Below, in pieces: positions 451 through 5,543 of a DNA stretch of 5,543 nucleotides. The notes under the pieces are model-generated. The model ran no database searches. It was not told the origin of the DNA and saw nothing but the letters and a program-made list of their open reading frames with translations. How positions within the stretch are numbered: the stretch's first letter is position 1; every line of letters begins with the position of its first letter. The stretch comes from Elusimicrobia bacterium HGW-Elusimicrobia-2. Lineage in GTDB: Bacteria; CG03. The DNA lies in assembly GCA_002841685.1 (NCBI GenBank), contig PHAM01000088.1:1-5543 (forward strand). The letters run 5' to 3'. The translations under genes and the position numbers were made by a program.

Positions 451-2226
451 ATGAAAATAAAAAATATACGGAATTTTTCCTTTATCGCCCACATAGACCA
501 CGGCAAGTCAACGCTCGCCGACAGGGTGCTGGAGATAACTGGCGTAATAAAAAAATACAAAGGTAAAACCCCGCAGATGGACAACATGGATCTGGAAAAA
601 GAGCGCGGTATCACCATAAAGGCGAAAGCCGTCAGTATCCCCTACAAGGGATACAACTTCAACCTCATAGACACGCCCGGCCATGTTGATTTCTCCTACG
701 AGGTGTCCCGGTCGCTGACCGCCTGCGAAGGCACCGTCCTCATCGTTGACGCCTCCGGCGGCATTGAGGCGCAGACAATAGCCAACCTCAACATGGCCAG
801 AGACAACAACCTCACCATAATACCCGTCATCAACAAGATAGACCTTCTCAGCGCCCGCATAGACACCGTCACAACCGACATAGCGGGGCTTCTGGGATGC
901 GAAAAAGAGGATGTCATCAGGGTGTCGGCGAAAACCGGCGAGGGCATCACCACGCTTCTGGACAAGATCATAGAGCTCGTGCCGGCGCCCGAAGGCGAGC
1001 CCGCCGGAAATCTCAAGGCGCTGATATTTGACTCCACCTTCGACGCCTTCAGGGGAGTGATCATATACATCCGCGTTTACGACGGCGAGATACGCGCGGG
1101 CATGAAAATAAAATCCATCGCCACCGGCAAGGAATACGAGGTGCAGGAAACCGGCATCTTCAGGATGAAGCCCGAGAAAAAAAAGAGCCTCACCGCCGGG
1201 GAGGTGGGGTATTTCATAGCCGGCATAAAAAGCCTTGACGAGATAAAGATAGGAGACACCCTCACGGGCGCGAAGAACACCACGGCTCCCGTTCCCGGAT
1301 TCAAAGAGATACAACCCTTTGTCTTCTCTTCGTTCTATCCCATAGGCGACACGACGGAAAAAAGGCTGCGCGAGGCCATAATGAAACTCAACCTCAACGA
1401 CGCCTCCTTCACATGGGAACCCGAACAGTCTCAGACGCTGGGACTGGGTTTCCGCCTGGGCTTCATGGGCTCTCTCCACATGGAAATAATACAGGAGCGG
1501 CTGGAAAGGGAATCGGACATAGAGATACTCGCCACCGCCCCCCAGGTGGTCTACCGCGTCAAAACCCACGACGGCGAGATGATAAACATATCCCGCCCCG
1601 ACGAATGGCCCGAAAAAAAAGCCGTCGCGAAAGTCTACGAACCCGAGATAACGGCGACCGTCATAACGCCCGACGCGTGGCTCGGGCAGTGCATGAAACT
1701 CCTTGAATCCCGCCGCTCGCAATACATCAGCCTCACCTACATCAACCCGCAGAAGGTCATACTCAAATACAAACTGCCGCTGGCCGAGATGATAGCCGAC
1801 TTTTATTCGGACCTCAAGTCCGTCAGCAAGGGCTACGCGTCATTTGACTACAAACACACGGGTTTCAGGGAAGCGAACCTTGAAAAGGTGGAGATCCTCG
1901 TCAACGGCGTCCCCGTGGAAGCCCTCTGCAGCATACAGCCCCGCGAGAGAGCCGCCTTCTTCTCCCGCGATATTCTGCTGAGGATGAAAAAATACATAGA
2001 CAAACAGATGTTCGAGGTGGCGCTCCAGGCGAAACTGGGAGGAAAGATCATAGCCCGCGAAACCGTCTCCGCACTGAGAAAAGATGTCATAGCCAAATGT
2101 TACGGCGGCGACATCACGAGAAAAAGAAAACTGCTGGAAAAACAGAAGGAAGGGAAGAAACGGATGAAAAGAATAGGCTCCGTGGACTTGCCTCAGGAAG
2201 TTTTTTTTGAAATACTCAGGAAATAG
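451..2226 (+). CDS. lepA: elongation factor 4 (ribosome-associated GTPase LepA)
   Basis: This encodes a 591-residue LepA/EF-4, a translational GTPase that binds the ribosome and is implicated in back-translocation or in 30S subunit biogenesis. The G-domain motifs are complete: AHIDHGKS (13-20, P-loop), RGIT (52-55, switch I), DTPGH (74-78, switch II with the catalytic His), NKID (128-131) and SAK (159-161). Domain II and the EF-G-like domains follow. The family stretch running from LNDASFTWEPEQSQTLG into GFRLGFMGSLHMEI lies at 315-346. The LepA-specific C-terminal domain occupies about 490-591, with the conserved basic block SALRKDVIAKCYGGDITRKR at 540-559. Length is close to the usual 600. 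The reading frame stays open upstream to 256, but that part lies antisense to acyP. The ATG at 451 gives the canonical N-terminus (IRNFSFIAHIDHGKS). No Shine-Dalgarno site precedes it. It forms an operon with lepB, as in Escherichia coli. ATA is the most used Ile codon. Confidence 0.97.
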   Translation: MKIKNIRNFSFIAHIDHGKSTLADRVLEITGVIKKYKGKTPQMDNMDLEKERGITIKAKAVSIPYKGYNFNLIDTPGHVDFSYEVSRSLTACEGTVLIVDASGGIEAQTIANLNMARDNNLTIIPVINKIDLLSARIDTVTTDIAGLLGCEKEDVIRVSAKTGEGITTLLDKIIELVPAPEGEPAGNLKALIFDSTFDAFRGVIIYIRVYDGEIRAGMKIKSIATGKEYEVQETGIFRMKPEKKKSLTAGEVGYFIAGIKSLDEIKIGDTLTGAKNTTAPVPGFKEIQPFVFSSFYPIGDTTEKRLREAIMKLNLNDASFTWEPEQSQTLGLGFRLGFMGSLHMEIIQERLERESDIEILATAPQVVYRVKTHDGEMINISRPDEWPEKKAVAKVYEPEITATVITPDAWLGQCMKLLESRRSQYISLTYINPQKVILKYKLPLAEMIADFYSDLKSVSKGYASFDYKHTGFREANLEKVEILVNGVPVEALCSIQPRERAAFFSRDILLRMKKYIDKQMFEVALQAKLGGKIIARETVSALRKDVIAKCYGGDITRKRKLLEKQKEGKKRMKRIGSVDLPQEVFFEILRK

Positions 2227-2229
2227 CTT

Positions 2230-3042
2230 ATGGAACAACTCGTATTTTTTATATCTCTCGGCATAGGCGCTGTTTACCTGGTAAGCATCCTCCGCGAAAA
2301 GTGGCAGAAGATAGTCACGGGCGTGATAGTCTGGGGCGGATGGGCGATCGCCTTCTGGAAATTCAACGGTGCGGAATGGCCAAAAGTCGTTGCGCTGACA
2401 ACGCTCGCCTGCCTGCCCTTTCTCTTTGAGGTCTATCCCGGAAAATACGCCGACGCTGTCAGGCGGGAGCTGAACTCTTTCTTTCAGACCCTCCTCACCG
2501 TTTCCGTCCTGATGTATTTCATAATACAGGCCTTTAAAATACCCTCCGGGTCAATGATGAACACCTACCTCATAGGCGACCATCTTTTCGCCTGTAAATT
2601 CCGCTACGGCTGGCACATCCCCTTAACACATAAATATTTAAAGTTCGCCTCACCCGTCCGCGGGGATGTGATAATCTTCAAATACCCCCTCGACCCCAAA
2701 AAAGATTTCATCAAAAGATGCATAGGCCTCCCCGGCGACACGATAGAGATCAGAAACAAACAGGTTTACATAAACGGCAAAAAGCTGATAGAGGATTACA
2801 CGCAGTTCGCCGACGGGGACCAGTTCCTTCCGGCCTCGCGCAGCGTCCGCGACAACTACGGACCCGTGAAGATACCAGCCAACTGTTTCTTTGCAATGGG
2901 CGATAACAGGGACAGGAGCATGGACTCAAGGTTCTGGGGCTGTCTCGAGAGAAGATATATACGGGGGAAAGCCCTTTTCACCTACTGGCCGCCCCGCCGC
3001 ATCGCCGGAGGACGGCACGAGCGCCCTCAATTTGAAAATTAA
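2230..3042 (+). CDS. lepB: signal peptidase I
   Basis: This encodes a 270-residue type I signal peptidase, the membrane-anchored Ser-Lys protease that removes signal peptides from exported proteins on the outer face of the inner membrane. The catalytic serine is Ser108 in KIPSGSMMNT (103-112). The general-base lysine is Lys162 in DFIKRCIGLPGD (159-170). The box following the first strand is RGDVIIFKYP (144-153), and the last conserved box is GDNRDRSMDSRFWG (224-237). Four hydrophobic stretches precede the catalytic domain (about 4-21, 28-43, 53-68 and 84-102), more than the two of E. coli LepB. The start codon lies 3 nt after the lepA stop. It is preceded by AGGAA (2218-2222) at a 7-nt spacing, so the start is well supported and translation is probably coupled to lepA. 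The 3' end overlaps the -35 box of the tRNA promoter. The C-terminal tail after residue 255 is basic and poorly conserved. Confidence 0.96.
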   Translation: MEQLVFFISLGIGAVYLVSILREKWQKIVTGVIVWGGWAIAFWKFNGAEWPKVVALTTLACLPFLFEVYPGKYADAVRRELNSFFQTLLTVSVLMYFIIQAFKIPSGSMMNTYLIGDHLFACKFRYGWHIPLTHKYLKFASPVRGDVIIFKYPLDPKKDFIKRCIGLPGDTIEIRNKQVYINGKKLIEDYTQFADGDQFLPASRSVRDNYGPVKIPANCFFAMGDNRDRSMDSRFWGCLERRYIRGKALFTYWPPRRIAGGRHERPQFEN

Positions 3043-3059
3043 TTTTATTTTGGTATAAT
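3032..3059 (+). promoter_or_regulatory. strong extended -10 promoter of tRNA-Asn
   Basis: TTGAAA (3032-3037, 5 of 6 to consensus) is followed after 16 nt by a perfect TATAAT (3054-3059). The -10 box carries the upstream TGn of an extended -10 element (TGG at 3051-3053). The -35 box lies within the last codons of lepB. Transcription would start near 3066 and give a leader of about 34 nt before the mature tRNA. Confidence 0.75.
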
Positions 3060-3099
3060 ATCCGGACTGGTGAGCATAGTCGAAACCAAGTTTTTACAT

Positions 3100-3172
3100 T
3101 CCGCGGTAGCTCAGCTGGTAGAGCAGCTGACTGTTAATCAGCGGGTCGCAGGTTCGAGCCCTGCCCGCGGAG
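3100..3172 (+). tRNA. tRNA-Asn (anticodon GUU)
   Basis: A full 73-nt cloverleaf can be drawn. The acceptor stem TCCGCGG/CCGCGGA pairs 3100-3106 with 3165-3171. The D arm is GCTC/GAGC with the GG pair in its loop. The anticodon stem GCTGA/TCAGC pairs 3126-3130 with 3138-3142, with loop CTGTTAA (3131-3137) and anticodon GTT at 3133-3135. The T arm is GCAGG/CCTGC with loop TTCGAGC. All stems are perfectly paired. The discriminator base is G3172, as expected for tRNA-Asn. CCA is not encoded, so it must be added after transcription. The 3' 35 nt overlap the end of the recombinase gene on the opposite strand. No terminator follows, which fits displacement of the native downstream sequence by an insertion. 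Confidence 0.97.
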
Positions 3173-3173
3173 T
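3138..3173. other. putative attachment junction (element end at the tRNA-Asn 3' half)
   Basis: The backbone-like sequence ends within or just after the 3' half of the tRNA. AT-rich recombinase DNA begins immediately after the discriminator base. The tRNA remains intact, which is the usual outcome when an element inserts at a tRNA 3' end and supplies or preserves that end. No second copy of the T-arm/acceptor sequence is visible up to 5543, so the exact core and the far end cannot be set from this window. Confidence 0.45.
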
Positions 3174-4712
3174 TGAGACAAACAGTTCGCTAACAGGCTC
3201 TTTCAGATTAACAGCAGAGAGGGCAATATTGACGTTCTTGTCGTCGAGCTTTATGTAAGATATGACCTCTCTCAACTTGTCTTTTGTTCCATTGTTAGGT
3301 GGTCGGAAAATGCTTTTTATCCTGTCGCTATATTCCCCGAATAAATTATTATCGCCCTGAATCAATTTTTCTAACCGGTCAATTTCATGCCGGATATAAA
3401 TATTTTTATCTTCAATATCTTTTTTTGACTGGTTCAATTTTATTATGCTTTCCTCAATGGTATTTTTCACAATTTCGGATTTGGTATTTGTTAATTCATT
3501 GAGCCTTGCTTCAATCTCTTTCACAAGAGCTTTCTTTTCTGCTTTCAATTTTTCAATCGCCGTATTCAGAAAATCAATTTTTTTCCTTATCCTGATTTTC
3601 CCTTCTGTTTTCAACTGATTAAACCTATCGCCGTTATTTGAGATTTCATCTAACCAGTCAAAGACCAGTTTATGCGTTACTTCCGCATCAATGCCGCTTA
3701 TCCCGCTATCTTTGCAGGTATTTTTATGAGAATAGTAATAATGCTTTTTGTTTATTCTGGAATAAGCGCATTTTCCCTGTAATTTTTCCCCGCATTTACC
3801 GCACATCATCAATCCCGAAAGCAGATAATTAAATCTTCCGGAATTTCGCCAATGCAATCGCTCTTTATTTGCTTTCAATAAATTTTCAGCCCGCCGGAAT
3901 AATTTCTCATCAATTATTCCGTTCCATACCGCTTTTACTTCTTCGTATTTGCTTTTATCCTTTTTGTAAATTTCTCTGACCCCGATATATGATTTATTCG
4001 TTAGAATGGAATATATTCTGCTTTTGTTGATTTTCTTCAATCCCGAATTTGAATCCGCATATTTTGATTTTATCGCTTCCGTCGTCCGTTGTATTGATTT
4101 TTCCTTTATGTAAGTTTTGAATATTTCCAGGACAATGCCGGATTCTTTTTTATCAATAAGCAAATATCCTTTTTTCTTTTTGTCCCGATAATATCCCAAC
4201 GGCGCGGCTCCGCCGTTTGCCAGACCCCTTTTGCTCCTCTCATAAGCATTTATGCTTGTCCTCTGTGAAGTCATCTCCCGTTCAAATTCACCGAAGACCA
4301 TCAGTATTTTCGTGATTAAATTTTTATACGGTGATGTTGTATCAATATCAGTTTTCAAACAGATTAAATCGCAATTGTATTTTTGCGTAAATTCAAAAAT
4401 GTTCAAAAAATCTTTCAGCGACCGCGAAAGCCGACTTAATTCGGTAAACATTATTGTATCTATCTTTTCGATTTCAATATCTTTGAGCATTTTTTGAAAA
4501 GCAGGCCTATTTATATCTTTCCCGGAAATTCCCTCATCAACATAAACTTCAATCAATTCACCCCAGCTTTTATTCAGCAAATTTCTTTTATTTACTTCGG
4601 CAAGGAGCATTTGCTTTTGATTTTTAAGAGAACCTTCCACAACTTTTGCCTGCCGTTCAGTAGAAACACGGATATAAAATCCAATTTTTCTTTTTGACTC
4701 AATATTATTCAT
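3138..4712 (-). CDS. large serine recombinase (site-specific integrase/resolvase family)
   Basis: This encodes 524 residues with the domain order of a large serine integrase. Residues 9-150 are the resolvase-type catalytic domain, with nucleophile Ser17 in YIRVSTERQ, EGISGKDINRPAF at 60-72, the arginines Arg94 and Arg97 in ELSRLSRS, and GEFERE at 141-146. Residues 160-280 match the recombinase domain. A zinc ribbon spans 300-335 (C304 and C307, then probably H329 and C333; the usual third Cys is replaced). A long charged coiled coil covers about 372-455. Such enzymes cut and rejoin DNA through a Ser-DNA linkage to integrate or excise elements. The ATG at 4712 is the only start, because an in-frame stop lies at 4740-4742; the ribosome site is weak (GAAAG at a 4-nt spacing). 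Residues 515-524, PRAGLEPATR, and the TGA stop are encoded in the antisense of tRNA-Asn. The native C-terminus is therefore probably near 505-514. Composition, about one-third GC, is unlike lepA/lepB and indicates horizontal acquisition. Confidence 0.93.
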   Translation of the reverse strand: MNNIESKRKIGFYIRVSTERQAKVVEGSLKNQKQMLLAEVNKRNLLNKSWGELIEVYVDEGISGKDINRPAFQKMLKDIEIEKIDTIMFTELSRLSRSLKDFLNIFEFTQKYNCDLICLKTDIDTTSPYKNLITKILMVFGEFEREMTSQRTSINAYERSKRGLANGGAAPLGYYRDKKKKGYLLIDKKESGIVLEIFKTYIKEKSIQRTTEAIKSKYADSNSGLKKINKSRIYSILTNKSYIGVREIYKKDKSKYEEVKAVWNGIIDEKLFRRAENLLKANKERLHWRNSGRFNYLLSGLMMCGKCGEKLQGKCAYSRINKKHYYYSHKNTCKDSGISGIDAEVTHKLVFDWLDEISNNGDRFNQLKTEGKIRIRKKIDFLNTAIEKLKAEKKALVKEIEARLNELTNTKSEIVKNTIEESIIKLNQSKKDIEDKNIYIRHEIDRLEKLIQGDNNLFGEYSDRIKSIFRPPNNGTKDKLREVISYIKLDDKNVNIALSAVNLKEPVSELFVSTPRAGLEPATR

Positions 4713-4723
4713 ATCACTTTCAT

Positions 4724-4770
4724 CGCTCGCCGCCTCCGACTATCCGTCCGCAAAGCGGACGGATTCTCCG
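4724..4770. repeat. repeat A copy 1, with 10-bp hairpin
   Basis: The unit runs CGCTC, CCGCCTCCG, then a stem-loop and CTCCG. The stem ATCCGTCCGC (4742-4751) pairs perfectly with GCGGACGGAT (4755-4764) around a 3-nt AAA loop. The same order and stem recur at 4998-5034. The unit ends about a dozen bases upstream of the recombinase ATG on the minus strand. Confidence 0.65.
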
Positions 4771-4851
4771 GCGACTCGCTCAAAATCGGTCGCGCGGCTA
4801 CGGCAATTACATCGCCTTCGCCCCCGCTCCCTCTCGCCAGCCGCCCGCGTC

Positions 4852-4866
4852 GGCAATAAAATTGCC
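4852..4866. repeat. short inverted repeat GGCAAT/ATTGCC
   Basis: A 6-bp perfect stem (4852-4857 with 4861-4866) encloses an AAA loop. An alternative pairing exists: GTCGGC at 4849-4854 or at 4915-4920 could instead pair with GCCGAC at 4874-4879. This part of the block could therefore fold in more than one way. Confidence 0.45.
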
Positions 4867-4921
4867 TCCGCTCGCCGACAACTTCTGCAAAATCCGTAAG
4901 CAAAAATATCCGTCGTCGGCT

Positions 4922-4940
4922 GTCCCGCTTTCCGCGGGAC
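4922..4940. repeat. hairpin B copy 1
   Basis: GTCCCGC (4922-4928) pairs with GCGGGAC (4934-4940) across a 5-nt loop. The stem resembles that of the hairpin at 4979-4996, with a different loop. Confidence 0.55.
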
Positions 4941-4978
4941 TGCGGCTTCTGCAATAACCCCTCTGTTGCCCGATGCCT

Positions 4979-4996
4979 GTCCCGTTTCGACGGGAT
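4979..4996. repeat. hairpin B copy 2
   Basis: GTCCCGT (4979-4985) pairs with ACGGGAT (4990-4996), ending in one G-T pair, around a TTCG loop. The stem shares GTCCCG with the hairpin at 4922-4940. Confidence 0.5.
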
Positions 4997-4997
4997 T

Positions 4998-5034
4998 CGC
5001 TCAACCGCCTCCGTCCGCCTTCGGACGGACTCCG
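4998..5034. repeat. repeat A copy 2, with 8-bp hairpin
   Basis: The order CGCTC, CCGCCTCCG, stem-loop, CTCCG matches the unit at 4724-4770, but the unit is about 10 nt shorter. The stem TCCGTCCG (5010-5017) pairs with CGGACGGA (5022-5029). The loop is CCTT instead of the AAA of copy 1. Confidence 0.6.
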
Positions 5035-5099
5035 CCTTTCGCTCTCCGCCCTCTCAGCCCTTTCTGAAAATTTCCTCTTTTCCCGTTTCCTCTTCTTCC

Positions 5100-5129
5100 G
5101 CGACAGGCTGCCCCCGCCCAGCCTGTCGC
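5100..5129. repeat. 11-bp perfect inverted repeat at the edge of the GC-rich block
   Basis: GCGACAGGCTG (5100-5110) pairs perfectly with CAGCCTGTCGC (5119-5129) around an 8-nt C-rich loop. It is the strongest hairpin in the window and lies where the GC-rich block gives way to AT-rich DNA. Neither side carries an adjacent T-run, so it is a poor fit to an intrinsic terminator. Confidence 0.65.
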
Positions 5130-5208
5130 TGTGTTATCTTTGCCCGTTTAAAAATAAATTTTTTAGACAGATGTAAATGAATTCTTTGATATAACACTTC
5201 CAATAATA

Positions 5209-5436: not shown

Positions 5437-5543
5437 ATTTAATTCTATTGAGCATGTTGCACAAACATTTTTTTTCAGCCCCCAACCGCTTCCAACTATA
5501 ATTTAACATTTTTTTCAAATTTTACAATGCCCAAAAATTATTT

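Follow-up and report, generated by a model that had tools for sequence, protein, structure and literature searches.

How does a recombinase gene come to share its last codons with a host tRNA, and to which of the two do those codons belong? The question is raised by a whole contig of 5543 bases, here called the window, from an Elusimicrobiota MAG (G000). A large serine recombinase (LSR) gene on the reverse strand (3138-4712, 524 aa) places its last ~10 codons and its stop inside a tRNA-Asn(GTT) gene on the forward strand (3099-3173, ARAGORN), which is the probable integration target of the element and in this copy has no encoded CCA. We consider it probable that an element inserted at the 3' end of tRNA-Asn took the tail of its recombinase from the host tRNA, and that the C-terminus depends on the site and on the state of the element.

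The recombinase and its tRNA-read tail

A sequence-only reading had proposed that the recombinase gene ends in tRNA-Asn, with PRAGLEPATR and a TGA stop read from the antisense strand over 35 nt. The ORF call, ARAGORN and Rfam (RF00005 at 3100-3172, 69.8 bits) agree on this arrangement, and we find an overlap of 35-36 nt. The ORF ends in ...ELFVSTPRAGLEPATR*. Its final ten residues and stop (3138-3173, reverse strand) are encoded by the strand opposite the tRNA acceptor, T arm, variable loop and anticodon stem, the TGA itself being the complement of 3138-3140 in the anticodon stem. Chance is a poor account of the overlap, because a close relative in another genus has the same tail and because such endings are frequent among LSR genes and absent from other ORFs at the same loci (both described below).

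Resolvase (PF00239), Recombinase (PF07508) and zinc-ribbon (PF13408) domains follow one another in the protein, all above the curated Pfam cut-offs. The domain search of the window protein gave serine recombinase domains only, and no tyrosine recombinase catalytic domain. R15, S17, R94, R97 and other residues of the catalytic domain are invariant in an alignment across 7 relatives. An AlphaFold2 model of moderate confidence (mean pLDDT 77, 7 sequences) includes a long coiled coil formed by helices 361-409 and 413-452. By its domain order, catalytic residues and predicted C-terminal coiled coil, the protein is a large serine recombinase.

These features bear on whether the gene is a decaying remnant that lost its stop and reads into the tRNA by accident. 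The fragmentary contig has yielded no cargo and no far end of an element, and the LSR at the same tRNA in a neighboring genus is truncated, both of which fit decay. However, the three domains are intact, the frame is open, the conserved residues of the catalytic domain are kept, S17 among them, and the close relative in the other genus has the same end. We regard decay as very improbable.

The tail itself is a different matter from the rest of the protein. Alignment with tRNA-targeting relatives shows that conservation ceases near position 500, ~20 residues short of the end. In the model, the final strand ends at 498, the folded part extends to about residue 502, and residues 503-524 (pLDDT <50) are predicted to be disordered. 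The tRNA-read tail falls outside the predicted fold. The early loss of conservation, the disordered end and the different tails of near-identical LSRs at different tRNAs (below) bear out the earlier suggestion that this tail is not ancestral protein sequence.

The same tRNA-Asn site in relatives

In the mechanism we favor, a mobile element carrying the LSR would have entered the host tRNA-Asn at its 3' end, with the LSR gene pointing at the tRNA. The attachment site of the element would sit at the 3' end of the LSR gene itself, so that strand exchange at the tRNA terminus would sever the native 3' end of the gene and put tRNA antisense in its place. The LSR frame would then continue in antisense into the host tRNA, the source of the last ~ten codons and the stop, and excision should restore the native tail.

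The host side of this junction can be followed in relatives. The flank at 451-3042 (forward strand) holds lepB (2230-3042, forward) and a gene named from its sequence that we take to be lepA (451-2226, forward), and lies beside the same tRNA in two other genomes, G002 and G006. Upstream of the tRNA, a promoter-like TTGAAA-16-TATAAT (3032-3059, forward) is identified by its consensus match only (11/12). In the congener G002, lepB and the same tRNA-Asn are followed by a deaminase-like gene with no recombinase, and by this gene order G002 is an empty site. The comparison with an empty locus had been proposed earlier, and in it G000 and G002 match through the last tRNA base and diverge beyond it.

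G006, an Elusimicrobia MAG (isolate AUK228) of another genus in the same family, is occupied. Its LSR, found in a search of 61 genomes, is 86% identical to that of the window over all 524 residues and, like it, terminates with this tail inside the tRNA-Asn of its own genome. The lepB genes of G000 and G006 are just 67% identical, from which we conclude that the recombinase was transferred horizontally. In the related genus represented by G005, a different, N-terminally truncated LSR lies at the same tRNA-Asn (G005:C105, L052 2261-3496), and its tail, RGQDSNLRPAD, is also tRNA antisense. This rules out G005 as an empty site and indicates that the site has been targeted repeatedly. Among 16 Elusimicrobiota genomes, the majority of LSRs adjoin a tRNA.

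These comparisons delimit a probable attL crossover zone (3165-3180) rather than a single base: homology to the empty site reaches 3172, and homology to the G006 element resumes at 3179. Just past the tRNA, 5 of 6 bases are different between G000 and G006 (TTGAGA/AAAACC), and the two are alike again from CAAACAG. This difference exceeds that in all of 417 later 6-base blocks and favors a crossover just past the tRNA. Alternatively, strand exchange may take place within the acceptor end, since the CCA after tRNA-Asn is encoded in the empty G002 copy and missing from the three occupied copies; the 6-base variable block would then be element DNA. Under either option the crossover would be close to the end of the tRNA, and the host would be the source of the residues that the tRNA body encodes. 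A 9-bp inverted repeat centered on the tRNA end (3131-3139 / 3206-3214) was rejected as a recombination site, its arms being too far from the center for an LSR.

Host ownership of the tail could be questioned if the element carried its own tRNA 3' half. The crossover would then be located far inside the tRNA, and the tail would belong to the element and be the same in both states. Islands that restore the tRNA are generally common (PMC12884075), and at one T-loop base the 3' half of the G006 tRNA-Asn agrees with G000 and not with G005. However, we find no displaced tRNA 3' fragment in either G000 or G006 (≤3 mismatches over 22 nt; both assemblies are incomplete), as expected if the host owns the tRNA end. 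In the related families tested, moreover, shared sequence reaches the CCA/acceptor end only and not the T arm. An element-owned tRNA half is thus unlikely, though the least so of the alternatives we weighed.

The tail of the window LSR is most likely host tRNA sequence that became attached to the gene when the element integrated and would be replaced on excision, as judged from relatives of this element. No attP, attR or circular form of the element was recovered; the contig extends 830 bases upstream of the gene and terminates in a repeat. This repeat, the final ~95 bases (5449-5543), also occurs at or near the ends of contigs C17, C63 and C88 of G000, which accounts for the assembly break inside the element. 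A right end sought by synteny was rejected: the G002 DNA past the tRNA maps to G000:C8, where the neighbors are different and there is no att remnant. No viral contig carrying the window protein was found. Among phages and plasmids, the window LSR and two related LSRs gave only distant matches (<60% identity; one query is approximate in ~12 N-terminal residues, outside the conserved part).

Tails at other targets and in phages

If the host supplies the tail, close copies of one recombinase should end differently at different targets. G031, a genome from another phylum, carries LSRs of one family at several targets. Those at tmRNA and at tRNA-Ala share 92% identity, with matching DNA as far as ...GAAGAATGGTGGAGGT, after which each follows the sequence of its own target. 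The tails are WWRWRESNPRPKRDPRWRLRP for the tmRNA copy and WWR for the tRNA-Ala copy, which adds a single residue past WW. A second pair, at tRNA-Phe and tRNA-Val, shows 91% identity as far as TGGTGG, which is complementary to the CCA end, and their tails read WWRETDLNRR... and WWALLDSNQ, respectively. More relatives lie at tRNA-Glu and, in degraded form, at tRNA-Leu. In this family, the target sets the tail, and the DNA shared among copies stops at the CCA/acceptor end.

In two of the G031 elements, the int 3' end recurs as an inverted 96-bp copy that reads on into ...EEWWSLLSDLRTLWEDTA*, possibly the native LSR ending. In both (L228, G031:C60; L240, G031:C15) the LSR neighbors a metallo-hydrolase-like ORF. 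The inverted 96-bp copies are identical inside each element and differ between the elements, as if homogenized.

The closest view of two states comes from a pair of phage LSRs in IMG/VR, L324 and L326, which are 88% identical over 527 residues. The proteins are alike up to GAGTGGTGG (GEWW), and the DNA is alike through GGCGAGTGGTGG. Past the shared part, L324 continues as tRNA antisense (SRRESNPRPIRCERIALAN) up to the end of the record; this tRNA, cut by the record end, was recognized from its sequence and a matching record (L312), not by ARAGORN. L326 continues instead into FSRHLNITLIVAIAVNKHYRKKEPRNGESLGTVAV and encodes a distinct 35-aa tail. Upstream of the L326 gene are phage-type genes (a repressor, an Erf-like annealing protein and an exonuclease), and downstream are small ORFs, one of which matches a phage family of unknown function. 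A GTTATG/CATAAC pair in L326 is symmetric about the shared TGGTGG, as an attP would have. From their sequences, L326 looks like a free form and L324 like a tRNA-integrated one, in two related phages rather than one phage in two states.

Other candidates in this search were set aside. A 34-bp match considered as the attR of L324 sits within a terminase-like ORF. As a free form, L288 (...NWLPKFPVLLTAVR*) is weaker than L326, with flanks that are not clearly phage. A search of viral sequences with L324 as query added no pairs. The idea that the C-terminus is state-dependent, also raised in the sequence-only reading, is therefore supported by the differing tails of L324 (at a tRNA) and L326 (apparently free); for the window element itself, it is an extrapolation.

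Prevalence and known systems

PF07508 is present in 112 of 386 genomes. We inspected 124 recombinase loci from a diverse range of bacteria, of which 116 have the 3' end in the data; the sample is non-random, with best-scoring matches taken first and relatives of G000 included. In 45 of the 116, the LSR ORF ends inside or reads through a tRNA or tmRNA, 44 of them antisense (the sub-counts are 34 ending inside and 13 reading through, the total being given as 45). None of 187 other ORFs (≥200 aa) at the same loci ends in a tRNA (Fisher p ~3e-22, with relatives counted separately and uncorrected for relatedness). A tRNA end had been described earlier as a less usual target for LSRs; these counts contradict that description for the present sample, in which the overlap is no oddity but an architecture that recurs.

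When mapped on a tree of 120 LSRs, location at a tRNA requires 21 changes, compared with a mean of 38.5 and a minimum of 29 for shuffled labels. The trait is clustered, yet it has been gained or lost many times. The clade of the window LSR (14 members, SH-aLRT 97) has a tRNA or tmRNA at or just past the gene end in 13 members.

Such recurrence across many lineages, together with the different tails of tRNA and non-tRNA forms, might mean that the tail swap is functional, altering activity, stability or directionality so that the protein reports integration. However, the tails vary widely in sequence and in length, with between 4 and 89 codons of the tRNA strand read by the sampled LSRs, and one of them adds only the single residue after WW. 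The end also lies outside the predicted fold, which looks like tolerance. This variety suggests that the tail may be tolerated rather than functional, and we think a functional swap improbable. A broader proposal is nearly as doubtful: that in a large share of bacterial LSRs the end of the gene is attP and a tRNA end is attB, so that the tail is rewritten at each integration and, in some, signals the integrated state by tuning activity, stability or directionality.

Attachment sites within coding sequence have parallels. SSV-type archaeal integrases are tyrosine recombinases with attP within the integrase gene and a tRNA target, and integration splits the gene. The window LSR would be alike in both the location of attP and the target, but here only the tail is exchanged. 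In mycobacteriophages such as BPs, immunity depends on integration: attP lies in the repressor gene, and integration changes the repressor C-terminus. There, the altered protein is a repressor with a known function, whereas here it is a recombinase whose tail may have no function.

The nearest precedent appears to be a group of serine integrases that target rumA. In streptococci, ICEs that carry a single serine integrase insert into rumA; direct repeats are present in rumA and in the integrase gene, and integration swaps the 3' parts of the two genes and alters the integrase C-terminus (PMC4701971). Like the window LSR, these integrases have Resolvase and Recombinase domains and, as proposed for the window, an att site in the integrase gene. 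The rumA target is a protein gene and both products change, whereas in the window the antisense strand of a tRNA is used and the tRNA is kept; the same principle may operate with a tRNA target that spares the host gene. Genomic islands of the Islander/TIGER type occupy tRNA and tmRNA genes and, like the window element, integrate at the 3' end and leave the tRNA intact. Unlike it, they mostly use tyrosine integrases, which outnumber serine ones about 8-fold in that source, and their attP often carries the tRNA end (PMC12884075). In the freely accessible literature we found no description of antisense tRNA tails on LSRs, which may have been noted elsewhere.

LSRs for use in genome engineering are mined from integrated genomes. 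If the annotated C-termini of many of them arise in this way, the tails of the cloned proteins are site-specific and non-native, and the native one must come from attP. The effect of the tail swap on integration or excision becomes a testable question. An antisense tail would also mark the attL junction and name the target tRNA, and could help to locate element boundaries where genomes are fragmented.

Several minor observations concern arrangement around LSR genes. Related LSRs at tRNA-Pro (L124, G006:C135) and tRNA-Leu (L126, G001:C183) have the opposite orientation, with the 5' side toward the tRNA 3' end. In L127 (G003:C59), the LSR frame runs antisense through an entire tRNA-Ser to a stop beyond it, giving a 620-aa ORF. 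Upstream of the window LSR, intergenic short repeats (4721-5054) recur at 71-89% identity at several loci in G000 and its congeners. A GC-rich hairpin, GCGACAGGCTG...CAGCCTGTCGC, lies upstream of the LSR at 5096-5131 in the window and at 778-813 in L002; it is 97% conserved between G000 and G006, and the adjacent DNA is not conserved.
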